Below are positions 23,946-60,831 of a stretch of 64,000 nucleotides of DNA, piece by piece (the first letter of the stretch is position 1; each line of letters begins with the position of its first letter). The position numbers and the translations under genes are program-made. Source of the DNA: Mesotoga infera (lineage in GTDB: Bacteria; Thermotogota; Thermotogae; Petrotogales; Kosmotogaceae); NCBI RefSeq assembly GCF_900157305.1, contig NZ_LS974202.1, forward strand, positions 1,984,001 to 2,048,000. The letters are read 5' to 3'. Under the pieces are notes generated by a model, which saw nothing but the letters and a program-made list of their open reading frames with translations, was not told where the DNA came from and did no database searches.

Positions 23946-25430
23946 ATGTACCGCAATCTTTTGAAGCAGCGCTACAGACTGGTTTTTGGCTACATAGGGA
24001 ATCTCTTCGTCTTCTTCCCTCTGGTAATGATGCTTCCTGTGCTTTACTGTATCTGGTATCCTTCGGTATTTGTGGATAGTCTGCCATTTCTCGAAGCGGC
24101 GGTGATCTGCTTCGCTTTTGGCATACTGTTCAAGCTCATCATGAAGGTCAAGCCTGGAGCACCTATCACGGTTCAGGAAGGTGCCATCATAGTGTTTTTT
24201 GCGTGGGTATTTGGAATAATCTTTTCAGCTCTTCCCTTCATCTTTGGCGGTTATCTTAACTTCACACAGGCGATTTTCGAGTCCACAAGCGGATTGACAA
24301 CTACCGGACTTACCATGGTAAACGTGCTCGCGATACCCGACACTTACCTTTTGTGGCGAAGCATATTGCAGTTCCTCGGAGGAGCAGGGTTTGCGATAAT
24401 AATGATGTCCGCGATACTAGGACCGGGAGGGCTCGGCCTTTACAAGGCCGAAGGACGCATGGATAATCTGGTGCCCAACATAAAAAGTTCAACAAGAACG
24501 ATTGCGGTTATCTACACTTCATACGCGGTGGCCGGTATTTTAATGTACAGAATAGCCGGTATGAACTGGTTCGATGCTATAAACCACTCTTTGACAGCCC
24601 TGGCCACAGGTGGTTTTTCGACCAGACTGGGCTCTATCGGCGAGTTCAACAGTCTGCCCGTAGAGATCGTGACCATTGTTCTTATGCTGCTTGGCGCTAC
24701 CGGTTTCGGTATTCACTATACGCTCTGGAGAAGAAACTTCAGAGCCTTCTGGAAAAATGGAGAGCCAAAACTGATGTTTCTGATAATAGCTTTTTTCACT
24801 CCATTGATAATGGCCGGAACGATGAAATACTTCTATGAGTCGATAGGAACTCAGTTCAGGCACGCTCTTTTCCAGTCAGTCTCGGCGTTAACAGGTACGG
24901 GCTTCTCCACCGTTGACTTCATACCATGGAATCAAATGGGGCTCTACCTATTAACAATTCTAATGATATTCGGCGGTAATCTCGATTCCACGTCAGGAGG
25001 ACTGAAACAGTACAGGCTCTTCGCTCTTTGGAAACTTCTCTGGATGGAGATAAAGATGTATTTTCTGCCGAAGAACGCTTTGCTTAAAGAAGAGATCTGG
25101 AAGGGCGAGACCAAAAGATATTTGAATCATTCACTGGTGAAAGAGATTCTGTTGGTTTTCTCGCTTTACTTTATAACGTACGCCGTTGGAGTTGGTATCA
25201 CGGCTTCTTACGGTCATTCGCTGGCATTCTCCGCCTTTGAGTTCGCCTCCGCACTCAGCACGGTCGGACTTTCGGTGGGAATTACCCTTCCCTCTTCACC
25301 CGTAGGTTTGATCTGGACGGAGACAATCGGTATGTTTCTAGGAAGACTTGAGTTTCTTGTCGTGATATATGCTATAACTAAATTACTGAGAGACGGAAAA
25401 GTAATGCTGGCTAAACGGAGGAATGATTGA
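23946..25430 (+). CDS. trkH: TrkH/KtrB-type potassium transporter subunit
   Basis: 494-residue inner-membrane pore subunit with four M1-P-M2 repeats. The four selectivity-loop segments are visible: STSGLTTTGLT (about 108), ALATGGFS (about 221), ALTGTGFST (about 315) and SALSTVGLS (about 436), each with the central glycine. The length fits TrkH more than KtrB. It is the last gene of the RR-RCK-RCK-TrkH group; hisS begins 3 bases after its stop, so hisS may be read on the same transcript. Confidence 0.94.
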   Translation: MYRNLLKQRYRLVFGYIGNLFVFFPLVMMLPVLYCIWYPSVFVDSLPFLEAAVICFAFGILFKLIMKVKPGAPITVQEGAIIVFFAWVFGIIFSALPFIFGGYLNFTQAIFESTSGLTTTGLTMVNVLAIPDTYLLWRSILQFLGGAGFAIIMMSAILGPGGLGLYKAEGRMDNLVPNIKSSTRTIAVIYTSYAVAGILMYRIAGMNWFDAINHSLTALATGGFSTRLGSIGEFNSLPVEIVTIVLMLLGATGFGIHYTLWRRNFRAFWKNGEPKLMFLIIAFFTPLIMAGTMKYFYESIGTQFRHALFQSVSALTGTGFSTVDFIPWNQMGLYLLTILMIFGGNLDSTSGGLKQYRLFALWKLLWMEIKMYFLPKNALLKEEIWKGETKRYLNHSLVKEILLVFSLYFITYAVGVGITASYGHSLAFSAFEFASALSTVGLSVGITLPSSPVGLIWTETIGMFLGRLEFLVVIYAITKLLRDGKVMLAKRRND

Positions 25431-55591: not shown

Positions 55592-56455
55592 TCAATTGAT
55601 GTTCTTGAAGCCTTCCCCAAAGACTTCGGAGTTGTTTACCAGAATTACGAAGGCCTTTTTGTCAATGGCTTTGACGATTTGTCTCAATTGGCCGATTTCG
55701 CGGCGCCGTAGTGAAACCATCAATACCGGCCGCTCTTCGCCAGTGAATCCACCAGTGGCCTTGATCATCGTAGTTCCCCTTTCCATCTCCTTTATTATCC
55801 TGTCCTTTATCTCCGTGCTGTGTACGCTCACTACGAAGGCCGTTCTCGTGTTCCCTATGCCTTCGATAATCGCGTCGATAGTTTTTCCGGTTGTAAATAT
55901 GGTTATTATTCCGTACATGGCTGCTATAGGACCGAAAACAACGATCGCGAAAATTGTGATCAACGAGTCGCTTATGAAGAGTCCCGATCCAGTGCTGAAA
56001 CTGAAGTACTTTGCCAGTATCATGGCAACGATGTCCGTCCCGCCAGTGGAGGCTCCCCTCCAAAGAACCAGTCCCATTCCAACTCCCGCTACTACTCCTC
56101 CGTAGATCGCCGCTAGAAGATAACCATCTTGTGTGGAGGCGGCATCCAGGTATGGAAAATGCAGTTTCTGCAAGATATCGACGGTTAGCGACATAAGGAT
56201 TGCCGAGTATATGGATTTTATTCCAAAGCCGATTCCTAGAATCACGAAGGCCATCGAAAACAGAAAAATATTGTAAACAAGCATCTGAGCACCTACCCAG
56301 AAGCCGAAAACTCTGTAGAGTATTATTGCCAAACCGCTAACACCACCGGCGATTATATTGTTTGGAATCATGAATGAGACTATCGCCACGGATGTCAGAA
56401 TCGAGCCTATCGTTATTAGAGAGTAATCAAGAAAGACCTTTCTCAAAGCCTTCAT
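55592..56455 (-). CDS. YitT family membrane protein
   Basis: 287 residues: five to six membrane helices (about 10-185), with the GASTGGTDI motif near 135, and a cytoplasmic DUF2179 domain (about 215-280) with TGGFTGEERPVLMV. The family has no agreed function; some members are linked to transport. It overlaps dnaJ by 4 bases and so is translated with the chaperone genes. Confidence 0.9.
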   Translation of the reverse strand: MKALRKVFLDYSLITIGSILTSVAIVSFMIPNNIIAGGVSGLAIILYRVFGFWVGAQMLVYNIFLFSMAFVILGIGFGIKSIYSAILMSLTVDILQKLHFPYLDAASTQDGYLLAAIYGGVVAGVGMGLVLWRGASTGGTDIVAMILAKYFSFSTGSGLFISDSLITIFAIVVFGPIAAMYGIITIFTTGKTIDAIIEGIGNTRTAFVVSVHSTEIKDRIIKEMERGTTMIKATGGFTGEERPVLMVSLRRREIGQLRQIVKAIDKKAFVILVNNSEVFGEGFKNIN

Positions 56456-57579
56456 TCGACCACCTTGGAGTTTTTCAACTTGGCGATCTGTTGCAGCAGT
56501 TTCTTTTCGCGGCTTGAAGGTCTGCCTATATTGACCCTTACCGTGACCAGCAGGTCGCCACGTTTACTGCCCGATATGTTGGGGACTCCCAGGTTCTTCA
56601 TTCTAAAGACGGTGTTCGGACTGGTACCGGCCGGTATCTTTAGAGTCTCGCTACCGCCCTCGGGGAGTCCGACGTCAATAGAAGTTCCCAGAGCGGCCTC
56701 CACATAATCAATTTCCTTGCTCACGTAGAGATCGTTACCGTTTCTGCGATATTCGGAAGGCATTTCAACCCTTACGCTCACATACAGATCGCCCGATGGA
56801 CCACCATTTTGACCGGCGTTTCCATGCCCCCCGATTCTCAAAGTAGAGCCGTTCTCAACGCCGGCAGGGATGTTGACACTCACCTGGTGTCTCTCCTTCT
56901 GTGTTCCTCTTCCTCCACAATCAGGGCAACGCTTGTCGATTATTCTCCCACTGCCGCCGCAAGTATTGCAGGCATGTGTGTTGCTGAAGATTCCAAAGAA
57001 AGATCGGTGTTCTTCCTTTATATAGCCAGTTCCGTTACAATTGGGGCAGGTTTTATAACTGGTGCCGCCCTCCGATCCATTGCCATTACAGCTCTTACAG
57101 GTGGTACTCCTGTCGTACTCGAGGATCACTTTCTTCCCAAGAATGACATCCTTTAGATCCACAACGACCGAAGCGTGTATATCCTCACCCCTGATGGCGC
57201 GTGGTCCCTGAGTCCTCGCAGTTCCGCCAGCTCTGTTACTTCCGAAAAAGACATCGAAGACGTCCTGAAAGTCTCCGAAGATATCGTCGAAGTGACCGCC
57301 CTCGGCACCCGGGGTCCGGCCGGAGCCACGGCTATAGGCCGAGGGATCTCCGACGTAGCCAAAACGATCGAACGTAGCTCGTTTCTCCTGATCGGAAAGA
57401 ACTTCATAGGCCTCCTGTATCTCCTTGAATTTCGCCTCGGCCGATTTTTTATCCTCGCCCTTGTAAGCGTCGGGATGCCATTCCTTCACCAGTTTTCTGT
57501 AAGCCTTTCTTATATCCTCCGGTGTTGCCGTTTTGGGAACTCCGAGGATCTCATAATAGTCCTTTCTCGATGGAGCCAT
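56452..57579 (-). CDS. dnaJ: chaperone DnaJ
   Basis: 375 residues, type I DnaJ. J domain with the HPD tripeptide in EWHPDAY (about 33-35), a Gly/Phe-rich linker, four zinc-finger repeats (CKSCNGNG, CPNCNGTG, CNTCGGSG, CPDCGGRG, about 150-215) and the C-terminal substrate domains. ATG 57579 is preferred to GTG 57588 as AGGTGA lies 6 bases upstream. It stimulates DnaK, which is not encoded in this operon, as in Thermotoga. Confidence 0.97.
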   Translation of the reverse strand: MAPSRKDYYEILGVPKTATPEDIRKAYRKLVKEWHPDAYKGEDKKSAEAKFKEIQEAYEVLSDQEKRATFDRFGYVGDPSAYSRGSGRTPGAEGGHFDDIFGDFQDVFDVFFGSNRAGGTARTQGPRAIRGEDIHASVVVDLKDVILGKKVILEYDRSTTCKSCNGNGSEGGTSYKTCPNCNGTGYIKEEHRSFFGIFSNTHACNTCGGSGRIIDKRCPDCGGRGTQKERHQVSVNIPAGVENGSTLRIGGHGNAGQNGGPSGDLYVSVRVEMPSEYRRNGNDLYVSKEIDYVEAALGTSIDVGLPEGGSETLKIPAGTSPNTVFRMKNLGVPNISGSKRGDLLVTVRVNIGRPSSREKKLLQQIAKLKNSKVVE

Positions 57580-57601
57580 GAAAATCACCTGCCACAGGTT
57601 C

Positions 57602-58165
57602 TCATTCGCCCGCCGAAGAGTTGTTTAGAGCTACCACTACCCTTGCTGGTTTGAGAACCTTACCATTGAAATTGTAACCGATCGCATTCACCTTATAAAC
57701 TGCCATATCCGGCATTTCGTTCGTCGATACGGTCTCGTCCACTTCGTTGGAGAAAGGATCGAACGGCATTCCGATCTCAGGCTCAATAAAGGAGACTCCC
57801 TCGTCCGACATCAGTTTTTCCATCGACTTCGATATTAATTCTATACCCAGAAAAAGACCATCGTCTCGATTCTGGTTGTTGGCCAACGCCCTCTTCAGAT
57901 CCATGTAGATATCTATTATTCTAAGGATCGTTCTCTCTTTGCTTCTTCTGACCTGTTCTTCCGCTTCCCTTTGTATCGCCGTCTTGAAGTTCTGAAACTC
58001 AGCCCTCAACCTAGCGTTTTCTTCCATCAGGTTCTTAACCGATGTCTTTAATTCATCTATCTCAATTTTTGATGCGTCTCCCATTTCAATTAAATTTTCC
58101 TGTACTCCAGAAGGAGTATCGTTTCGATCCATATCGTTGATGGTTTCTTCATGCTTCCCGTCCAT
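57602..58165 (-). CDS. grpE: nucleotide exchange factor GrpE
   Basis: 187 residues. A variable acidic N-terminus, a long coiled coil with ARLRAEFQNFKTAIQREAEE, a four-helix part and the C-terminal beta domain ending YNFNGKVLKPARVVV fit GrpE. It releases ADP from DnaK. AGGAGG precedes the ATG; it lies 18 bases after hrcA and 22 before dnaJ. Confidence 0.95.
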   Translation of the reverse strand: MDGKHEETINDMDRNDTPSGVQENLIEMGDASKIEIDELKTSVKNLMEENARLRAEFQNFKTAIQREAEEQVRRSKERTILRIIDIYMDLKRALANNQNRDDGLFLGIELISKSMEKLMSDEGVSFIEPEIGMPFDPFSNEVDETVSTNEMPDMAVYKVNAIGYNFNGKVLKPARVVVALNNSSAGE

Positions 58166-58183: not shown

Positions 58184-59227
58184 CTATCTGTTCGAAAAAA
58201 CTTCCGAAAGCCTGTTTATAGAAAATTCGAGATAGCCAGTTATCTTCTCGTAATATGACAGCTTCGGAGCCACTATGTAGACCGTACCTATCTTCTCGTC
58301 GTTTCTGGTGTAAGGGGAGGCGAAAATAGAATAGTTCTTCATATCATCTCTGCCTATCTCCTGACCTATGAAGGCCTTCGGAGAATCGACTTCTCCCAGT
58401 TCTTTAAGTAACCCGTCGAGACTTTTCGGATTCTCTACCGCCTTTACAAGATCAATAACGTCTTGAGAGTCAAGAAACTCACTGGCTATTACGAACTCGA
58501 GTCCATACCTGAAATACTTCTCTTCGTTCTCCTTATCGAATATACTTTGCAGAAAGTGAAGGATCTCCTGCACTCTTCTGTCGTACCATTGATCTTCTTT
58601 TATCTCGACGTTCCTGATGCCCTTTCGTATCTCCCCAACGGTTTTTCCGACAACAGCCATGTTGATTTGTTTTTGAAAAGCATCGACATCAAATTCATTA
58701 AGTCCCGTAAAAACAGTGGTATTCAAACTCACGCCCAGATCGGTGATCACCGAAACGTTCAGATAACCTTCGGCTATTCTGGATATTGAGACAGATCTTA
58801 CGACTAGCCTGTCGAGTTTCGGTTTTTCAATTATCACGAAGGCCGAGGCGGCGCGAGCGAGAATTCTGGTCATACCCTGAAGGAGCCGTTCAATATCACC
58901 CATGAAGCTGGCCTGGCGGATAGCTATGGCTACGTTGCTCTCCTGCAAATCTCTTGAGATGCTCTTTATTGAATCGAAATAAAACCTCAATCCCTTATCC
59001 GTCAGTACCCTACCGGCAGATGTATGTGGCTGGTTGATGTACCCCAGAAACTCGAGCTTTCTCATATCGTTTCTGACAGTCGCAGAGCTGAAATTAAGGT
59101 TGGAATGCTCGAGAACCTGTTTAGAACTCACAGGTTTGCCGGTGGATATGTACTCTCTAGATATGCAGTAAAGGACTCTAATCTGCCTGGAATTAAGATC
59201 CGGACCAATCATTCGCTTTCTGGACAT
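58184..59227 (-). CDS. hrcA: heat-inducible repressor HrcA
   Basis: 347 residues. The N-terminal winged helix with SSATVRNDMRKLEFLGYI and QPHTSAGRVLTDKG is the HrcA hallmark; a GAF-like middle and dimer region follow. HrcA binds CIRCE and represses the chaperone operon. The start ATG at 59227 lies directly against the CIRCE element, whose inner half contains the ribosome-binding GGAG. It is the first gene of hrcA-grpE-dnaJ-yitT-tsaB. Confidence 0.96.
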   Translation of the reverse strand: MSRKRMIGPDLNSRQIRVLYCISREYISTGKPVSSKQVLEHSNLNFSSATVRNDMRKLEFLGYINQPHTSAGRVLTDKGLRFYFDSIKSISRDLQESNVAIAIRQASFMGDIERLLQGMTRILARAASAFVIIEKPKLDRLVVRSVSISRIAEGYLNVSVITDLGVSLNTTVFTGLNEFDVDAFQKQINMAVVGKTVGEIRKGIRNVEIKEDQWYDRRVQEILHFLQSIFDKENEEKYFRYGLEFVIASEFLDSQDVIDLVKAVENPKSLDGLLKELGEVDSPKAFIGQEIGRDDMKNYSIFASPYTRNDEKIGTVYIVAPKLSYYEKITGYLEFSINRLSEVFSNR

Positions 59228-59254
59228 TTAGCACTCCTTCCTAAAGACTGCTAA
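59228..59254. promoter_or_regulatory. CIRCE operator
   Basis: TTAGCACTC, 9-base spacer, GACTGCTAA; one mismatch from the consensus TTAGCACTC-N9-GAGTGCTAA. It covers the expected transcript start and the ribosome-binding site of hrcA, so HrcA would block both initiation and, in RNA form, shape the leader. Confidence 0.95.
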
Positions 59255-59257
59255 TTA

Positions 59258-59286
59258 ATGTTAGCATACGCCGCCTCAGTTGTCAA
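59258..59286 (-). promoter_or_regulatory. hrcA operon promoter
   Basis: TTGACA (59286-59281), 17-base spacer, TAACAT (59263-59258) on the minus strand. Confidence 0.88.
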
Positions 59287-59308
59287 GTTCAGGGAGCGAT
59301 GATACAAT
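59280..59308 (+). promoter_or_regulatory. murE promoter, -35 overlapping that of hrcA
   Basis: TTGTCA (59280-59285), 17-base spacer, TACAAT (59303-59308) with TGA before it (extended -10). Five bases of its -35 are shared with the -35 of the divergent hrcA promoter. Confidence 0.82.
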
Positions 59309-59334
59309 CTTCTAGAGCGAAAGGGGTGTGATTC

Positions 59335-60831
59335 ATGAGATTGTCTCAGATCATAGAACTCCTCGGCAACAACGTCCTTCAGGTAGTGAACCCCGGAAAT
59401 ATAGACCCCGAATTTGAGCATGTGGAGAGCGATTCAAGAATTCTCAAAGAGAACGATCTCTTCATATGTATAAAGGGGCAGGCTTTCGACTCGCACCTGA
59501 TTGCCAGAGAGCTTCAAAAGAAGGGTGCGGCTGCTCTGATAGCCGAAACTGCCATAGAGGATGAAGAGATTTTGATTCCCATAGTTTACGTGAAAAGTTC
59601 CCGGCTTGCAGAAGCTTTGTTGACCATGGAAGAGTGCAACCACCCTTATCGCAAACTCACAACCATAGGCGTCACAGGTACCAATGGTAAAACGACGATC
59701 ACCACTCTCATTTATCATGTGCTCTCAATTTTCGAAAGGAAGGCATCTCTCATAGGAACTGTGAGAAATGTAGTCGGTGAAAACGTATATACAAATCCCA
59801 AGAACACCACGCCAGGTCCTTTCGAGCTGGCCAGACTCCTCCAGCTTTCGACCAAACTCAAATCCGAATATTTCGTCATGGAAGTCTCTTCACATTCACT
59901 CTCCATGAACAGAGTCGAGGGCATGAGGTTCGACGTCGGTATAATAACCAACGTTACGCGGGATCATCTGGATTTTCACTCCTCATTTGAAGATTACTAC
60001 AGGGCGAAGATGCATCTGTTTTCGCTTTTAAAATCCAACGGTATAGCCGTCGTGAATGGAGACAAAATAAACATCGCTGATATTCACATATCCAGGAACC
60101 GAATCATAACTTACGGTTTCGGAGACGAATCTGATTACAGAATCGAAGATCTCGATATTTCCCGCACCGGAATGGATTTCACTATACATACCCCGTTCGG
60201 TTCCTCCCAGAGAGTTTACACCCGACTGATAGGAGAACACAACGCATACAACGTGGCAGCCGCAATAGCAGTGCTAAATTCGTTGAATTACGATATGGAT
60301 CACATACTGAAGGCTATTTCATCTTTCGGTGGAGTGCCCGGAAGGTTCGAATTCGTCGAAGAGGCCACCAAGTACGGTTTCGATGTCGTGATAGATTTCG
60401 CCCACACGCCAGATGCACTGGAAAAACTGCTGCGTACTGCCAGGAGACTCAGCCCGGGTAGGTTGATACTTGTCTTTGGAGCGGGAGGGTCGGCCGACAA
60501 AGGGAAGAGACCGTTGATGTCGGAAGTTTCCTCCCGGTTCAGTGATGTGGTGATACTTACCTCCGACGATCCGAAAAACGACGATCCTCTGGAGATACTT
60601 CAGGATCTGGAAAGTGGAATCGACAAATTCAAGCCATATCTAGTGATCCCGGATAGAAAAGAAGCCATTTCCGTTGCCCTAACACTTGCCAACAGACAGG
60701 ATATGGTTTTGATAGCGGGCAGGGGGCACGAAGATTTCCAGATTCTCAAGGACAGGAAGGTTCCTTTCAACGATAAGCAAGTCGTTAAAGATATTTTAGA
60801 AACTAAATTCCGGAGGCACATCAAGAAGTGA
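59335..60831 (+). CDS. murE: UDP-N-acetylmuramoyl-tripeptide synthetase MurE
   Basis: 498 residues. Adds the third amino acid to UDP-MurNAc-L-Ala-D-Glu in the cytoplasm. ATP loop GVTGTNGKTTITTLIYH (about 110), a carbamylated-lysine region, and the C-terminal domain with the specificity motif DDPKNDDP (about 408-415). Diaminopimelate-adding enzymes have DNPR at this place; T. maritima MurE, which adds lysine, has a DDPRGEDP-like motif. I infer a lysine-adding enzyme. The ATG follows AAAGGGGTG. It overlaps murF by 4 bases (GTGA). Confidence 0.94.
   Translation: MRLSQIIELLGNNVLQVVNPGNIDPEFEHVESDSRILKENDLFICIKGQAFDSHLIARELQKKGAAALIAETAIEDEEILIPIVYVKSSRLAEALLTMEECNHPYRKLTTIGVTGTNGKTTITTLIYHVLSIFERKASLIGTVRNVVGENVYTNPKNTTPGPFELARLLQLSTKLKSEYFVMEVSSHSLSMNRVEGMRFDVGIITNVTRDHLDFHSSFEDYYRAKMHLFSLLKSNGIAVVNGDKINIADIHISRNRIITYGFGDESDYRIEDLDISRTGMDFTIHTPFGSSQRVYTRLIGEHNAYNVAAAIAVLNSLNYDMDHILKAISSFGGVPGRFEFVEEATKYGFDVVIDFAHTPDALEKLLRTARRLSPGRLILVFGAGGSADKGKRPLMSEVSSRFSDVVILTSDDPKNDDPLEILQDLESGIDKFKPYLVIPDRKEAISVALTLANRQDMVLIAGRGHEDFQILKDRKVPFNDKQVVKDILETKFRRHIKK

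Follow-up and report, generated by a model that had tools for sequence, protein, structure and literature searches.

Divergent hrcA and murE promoters of Mesotoga infera overlap in a conserved -35 heptamer that may couple heat-shock chaperones to a cell-wall cluster

Can RNA polymerase serve a heat-shock chaperone operon and a cell-wall operon at the same time when their divergent promoters read one -35 region on opposite strands? The locus that raises this question lies in a 64-kb stretch of the Mesotoga infera genome (contig NZ_LS974202.1, positions 1,984,001 to 2,048,000), hereafter the window. Direct reading of the sequence placed hrcA on the minus strand and murE on the plus strand, with an intergenic gap of 107 bp between them (Table 1). 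The gene hrcA is the first of an operon ordered hrcA-grpE-dnaJ, while the cluster on the right runs murE-murF-mraY and continues with a murD-like frame. In addition to its family assignment, the HrcA protein matches one solved structure, 1STZ, named as an HrcA homolog (E 1.4e-65). The left operon thus has the composition of an HrcA/CIRCE heat-shock operon, with an HrcA of a curated family and a CIRCE operator between the promoter and the hrcA start.

The earlier note had proposed that the two -35 elements overlap by five bases next to CIRCE and that each is followed, after a 17-base spacer, by a good -10 element. Direct reading and a consensus scan bore out this layout, and all the coordinates given for both -35s and for CIRCE proved correct. 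The hrcA promoter (TTGACA, 17-bp spacer, TGcTAACAT) and the murE promoter (TTGTCA, 17-bp spacer, TGaTACAAT) each score 10/12 plus the TG extension. Their -35s are read from opposite strands of a single heptamer, TTGTCAA, within which five bases are shared (59281-59285), and the double promoter as a whole spans 59258-59308. As core elements on opposite strands overlap, the pair can be classed as overlapping divergent promoters. Base 59283 is position 4 in both -35 hexamers, so that the consensus A is possible for only one of them, and it is hrcA that has it; base 59280, the first T of TTGTCA, is needed by the murE -35 only. Counting 7 nt beyond each -10, transcription is predicted to start near 59251 for hrcA and near 59315 for murE, which would place the starts about 64 bp apart and give murE a leader of 20 nt. 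CIRCE covers the predicted hrcA start and includes the hrcA ribosome-binding sequence.

Table 1. Features of the hrcA-murE locus (positions are those of the window unless stated otherwise).
Feature	Position	Strand	Basis or remark
dnaJ	56452..57588	-	TIGR02349, 395 bits (cut-off 377)
grpE	57602..58165	-	best family NF010750 GrpE, E 1.2e-25, under its cut-off
hrcA, heat-inducible transcriptional repressor	58184..59227	-	TIGR00331, 216.5 bits (cut-off 197.2)
CIRCE operator, 1 mismatch	59228..59254	.	pattern match; abuts hrcA ATG (start codon 59227)
hrcA -10 hexamer TAACAT (TG extension 59265-59266)	59258..59263	-	consensus scan and conservation
hrcA -35 TTGACA (consensus)	59286-59281	-	consensus scan and conservation
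murE -35 TTGTCA	59280..59285	+	consensus scan and conservation
murE -10 hexamer TACAAT (TG extension 59300-59301)	59303..59308	+	consensus scan and conservation
murE	59335..60831	+	TIGR01085, 488 bits (cut-off 257); NF001126 also above cut-off
second CIRCE-like site, before groES-groEL (groESL)	NZ_LS974202.1 genome 2079096-2079122		

Taken alone, the consensus scan is weak evidence, as it returned three promoter-like sites in a 2-kb region against 3.1 expected from shuffles. The hrcA-murE site is the sole overlapping divergent pair in the window whose two promoters each reach at least 10/12, and 12 shuffles yielded none. Pattern searches of the 2.97-Mb genome returned it as the only match, allowing 0-1 mismatch, to a composite pattern that includes extended -10s, and as one of two matches to a looser composite pattern. 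The double promoter is not the product of chance. One other, weaker pair of this kind, at 24804 within a 494-aa reading frame, was set aside as a chance occurrence.

HrcA was found in 99 of 103 Thermotogota genomes, and the upstream regions were compared. This comparison of relatives, which the earlier note had suggested, revealed a conserved overlap. In 17/17 genomes of the host family, judged from named records L033 and L036 to be the Kosmotogaceae (f1), hrcA and murE diverge across some 89-112 bp and the complete double promoter is present; it also occurs, with both -10s at 17 bp, in a second family of Thermotogota (f3), in all ten of its readable genomes. Throughout these 27 genomes TTGTCAA is invariant and the TG-extended -10 of hrcA stands at 17 bp. 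A murE TAnAAT at 17 bp is likewise found in 27/27, versus 0/50 genomes without murE beside hrcA, none of which has even a -10 of 5/6 at the murE position (Fisher 2e-21, a value overstated by the kinship of the genomes, which was left uncorrected). Furthermore, among 13 diverged representatives from different genera or lineages, the heptamer and the murE T-A-n-A-A-T are invariant, and so are positions 1, 2 and 6 of the hrcA -10; most spacer columns come close to random, with less than 0.5 bit around offsets +10 to +17. The distance from the murE -10 to the start codon ranges from 10 to 28 nt, with one outlier at 140 nt, and the spacer between -35 and -10 is always 17. A fixed spacer next to a variable -10-to-start distance is what use of the shared -35 by murE would predict.

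In a further family (f2) the genes stay divergent and the murE -10 is in register in 1 of 20 genomes. Most f2 genomes offer other candidate promoters for murE, indicating that sharing of the -35 is dispensable. The order that comprises Kosmotogaceae and f2 does not include f3; an ancestral layout that was mostly lost in f2 seems simpler than repeated origin.

The heptamer, for its part, is not confined to hrcA genes paired with murE. TTGACAA differs little from its reverse complement and gives the opposite strand a 5/6 -35; in most families without a nearby murE it stands at hrcA, in 25 of the 28 murE-less genomes whose TTGACA is perfect. Since it is kept at hrcA without a murE neighbour, conservation of the heptamer is no evidence for a switch or for its use by murE; judging from these alignments, it is the in-register murE -10, unlike the heptamer alone, that is informative about murE. 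Base 59280 was also considered as a marker of an adjacent murE and rejected, as the same 25 murE-less genomes have an A at position 7, after TTGACA.

Several known systems resemble this locus in part. E. coli bidirectional promoters, whose two directions have a -10 in common, are transcribed too weakly at the basal level to compete, and repression of one side appears only when the other is strongly activated (PMC12825309). Both there and here, pseudo-symmetric DNA is read on both strands, polymerase binds in one orientation at once, and activating one side can repress the other, an effect seen in E. coli and suggested by geometry at hrcA-murE. However, starts in the E. coli promoters are commonly 10, 18 or 23 bp apart (PMC12825309), whereas in our case it is the -35 that is shared, the predicted starts are far wider apart and two promoters stand back to back; with unshared -10 elements 39 bp apart, the site is not a bidirectional promoter in the sense of Warman et al. 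For plasmid pLS20, polymerase itself was proposed as the switch between the overlapping divergent promoters Pc and Pr (PMC4207663). That system also combines such promoters with a dedicated regulator, but the -10 and -35 boxes of its two promoters are believed to coincide, both promoters are covered by the regulator and looping is involved (PMC4207663), while HrcA has its site outside the murE promoter and there is no known loop. The likeness to class I heat-shock operons under HrcA/CIRCE control is found in the CIRCE over the predicted hrcA-grpE-dnaJ start and the second one before groESL; the difference is a divergent housekeeping operon sharing the -35, which we did not find described in the literature searched. 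The open-licence literature on hrcA-murE, on Thermotogales HrcA regulons and on overlapping -35s yielded no description of hrcA and murE promoters sharing a -35, which is weak evidence of absence. The novelty claimed in the earlier note thus holds in part: what appears new is the combination of hrcA with murE and the geometry of the shared -35, but polymerase acting as the switch had already been described for pLS20. Overlapping divergent promoters are a known kind, and a conserved chaperone/cell-wall pair with a shared -35 appears to be a new instance.

With predicted starts so close together, one RNA polymerase should exclude the other, and a polymerase on either promoter would cover the -35 and -10 of its neighbour. 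That only one promoter can be used at a time was also the view of the earlier note, and as a deduction from geometry it is strongly supported by the conserved elements and by both spacings; we consider functional mutual exclusion of RNA polymerase at the two promoters likely. CIRCE is located at about -61 to -87 of murE, upstream of the expected polymerase footprint, so that HrcA bound there would block hrcA only and repress the chaperone direction alone. Heat is established to release HrcA in the HrcA/CIRCE family. On heat shock, the derepressed hrcA promoter, which has the better -35, would gain a larger share of the site and initiation at the murE operon would fall in a graded manner; conversely, polymerases at murE would damp leakage from hrcA. 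A steady-state sketch with assumed parameters put murE at 0.15-0.99 of its resting level, depending on the hrcA on-rate and the clearance time. The reading that combines overlapping divergent sigma-70-type promoters, exclusion, one-sided action of HrcA and a graded drop of murE on heat shock is the one we favour, with moderate confidence. A physiologically meaningful fall of murE on heat shock is possible rather than probable, and we find it rather doubtful that a switch conserved in two families lets derepression of the HrcA operon in protein-folding stress throttle peptidoglycan precursor synthesis at the shared -35 without a second regulator. As competition in E. coli was seen only under strong one-sided activation, a one-sided, graded dampening of murE during strong derepression appears likelier than a toggle, and HrcA leaving the site to murE at rest, as the earlier note had it, may mean little. 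Neither hrcA nor murE is named in the main text of an RNA-seq paper on Kosmotoga olearia at 30, 40, 65 and 77 degrees (PMC5674127).

The overlap might instead have no regulatory role and simply be locked in, with murE having adopted the near-palindromic TTGACAA of hrcA and both promoters being too weak to compete, an explanation that we judge quite plausible, if short of probable. No single small change would separate the promoters without breaking one of them, so the overlap would persist, and escape would need a second -35, as in the f2 genome G031, which has one TTGACAA per gene. Such an origin fits the common occurrence of TTGACAA at hrcA without a nearby murE, the lack of competition at basal level in E. 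coli bidirectional promoters (PMC12825309) and the short promoter-containing intergenic regions reported for T. maritima (PMC3636130). However, sharing spares no more than about 6 bp, and separation is possible, as seen in f2 genomes. Moreover, a heat-shock promoter freed of its repressor should be strong, which is the very condition where competition was observed.

Use of the shared -35 by murE would itself be in question if murE had a -35-independent extended -10 promoter (TGnTAnAAT) and TTGTCA were an unused by-product of the hrcA -35, although the footprints would still overlap. All 17 Kosmotogaceae genomes have TGnTAnAAT at murE and might need no -35 there, this mode has the highest information in 63% of T. 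maritima transcription units (PMC3636130), and in a genome of another family (G043, f8) with divergent hrcA and murE the murE -10 is shifted and its -35 is poor. We nevertheless consider this unlikely, as the murE -10 stands exactly 17 bp from TTGTCA in 27/27 genomes while neighbouring distances vary, and as four f3 genomes are devoid of the TG extension at murE and keep the -35 and the spacing. Least convincing is transcription of murE mainly from another promoter, the apparent one being a chance match: the 2-kb scan, with as many sites as in shuffles, would allow it, but conservation in the 27 genomes against none of the 50 controls, together with the top score of the shared-site candidate upstream of murE in every Kosmotogaceae and f3 genome, makes it very improbable.

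As far as can be judged from sequence, seven bases shared by the two promoters in the host and most of its close relatives may couple the heat-shock chaperones to the cell-wall cluster. If such coupling is true, a rising demand for chaperones would slow wall-precursor synthesis through promoter geometry alone, and the locus would be a test case, conserved in nature, in which polymerases compete for a shared -35 and one side can be induced physiologically. Two genomes provide natural controls: G031, with its separated -35s, and G001, with a frameshifted hrcA behind an intact promoter. In G031 (L101), two TTGACAA copies lie 16 bp apart, apparently one for hrcA and one reversed for murE, making this a natural unshared version of the layout. 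In G001, a genome of the same genus (L105:1-1600, minus strand), an apparent duplication of 4 bp (TAAG) shifts the reading frame in the middle of hrcA, with CIRCE and both promoters unaffected; this reflects either a natural hrcA-minus strain or a sequencing error.

A CIRCE-like site is present upstream of hrcA in every Kosmotogaceae and f3 genome. The M. infera genome contains two within three mismatches, at hrcA and before groES-groEL, and no further one was found genome-wide at that threshold; any dnaK locus outside these two operons therefore seems to be without CIRCE. At position 59248, in the promoter-proximal arm, all 17 Kosmotogaceae genomes share one departure from CIRCE, TTAGCAGTC for TTAGCACTC, and the groESL site of the same genome departs there too (TTAGCAAAC). 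This shared departure may reflect a shifted preference of HrcA or the needs of the start site. A third HrcA half-site within the hrcA -10 (TTAGCA, 59262-59267) was considered and rejected, as several close relatives have TTACCA there and f3 genomes vary. Finally, in several f2 genomes (L085-L096) TTGACA has become unrecognisable at its usual position before hrcA, which reads TTTTTAC, while the TG-extended -10 and CIRCE are kept.
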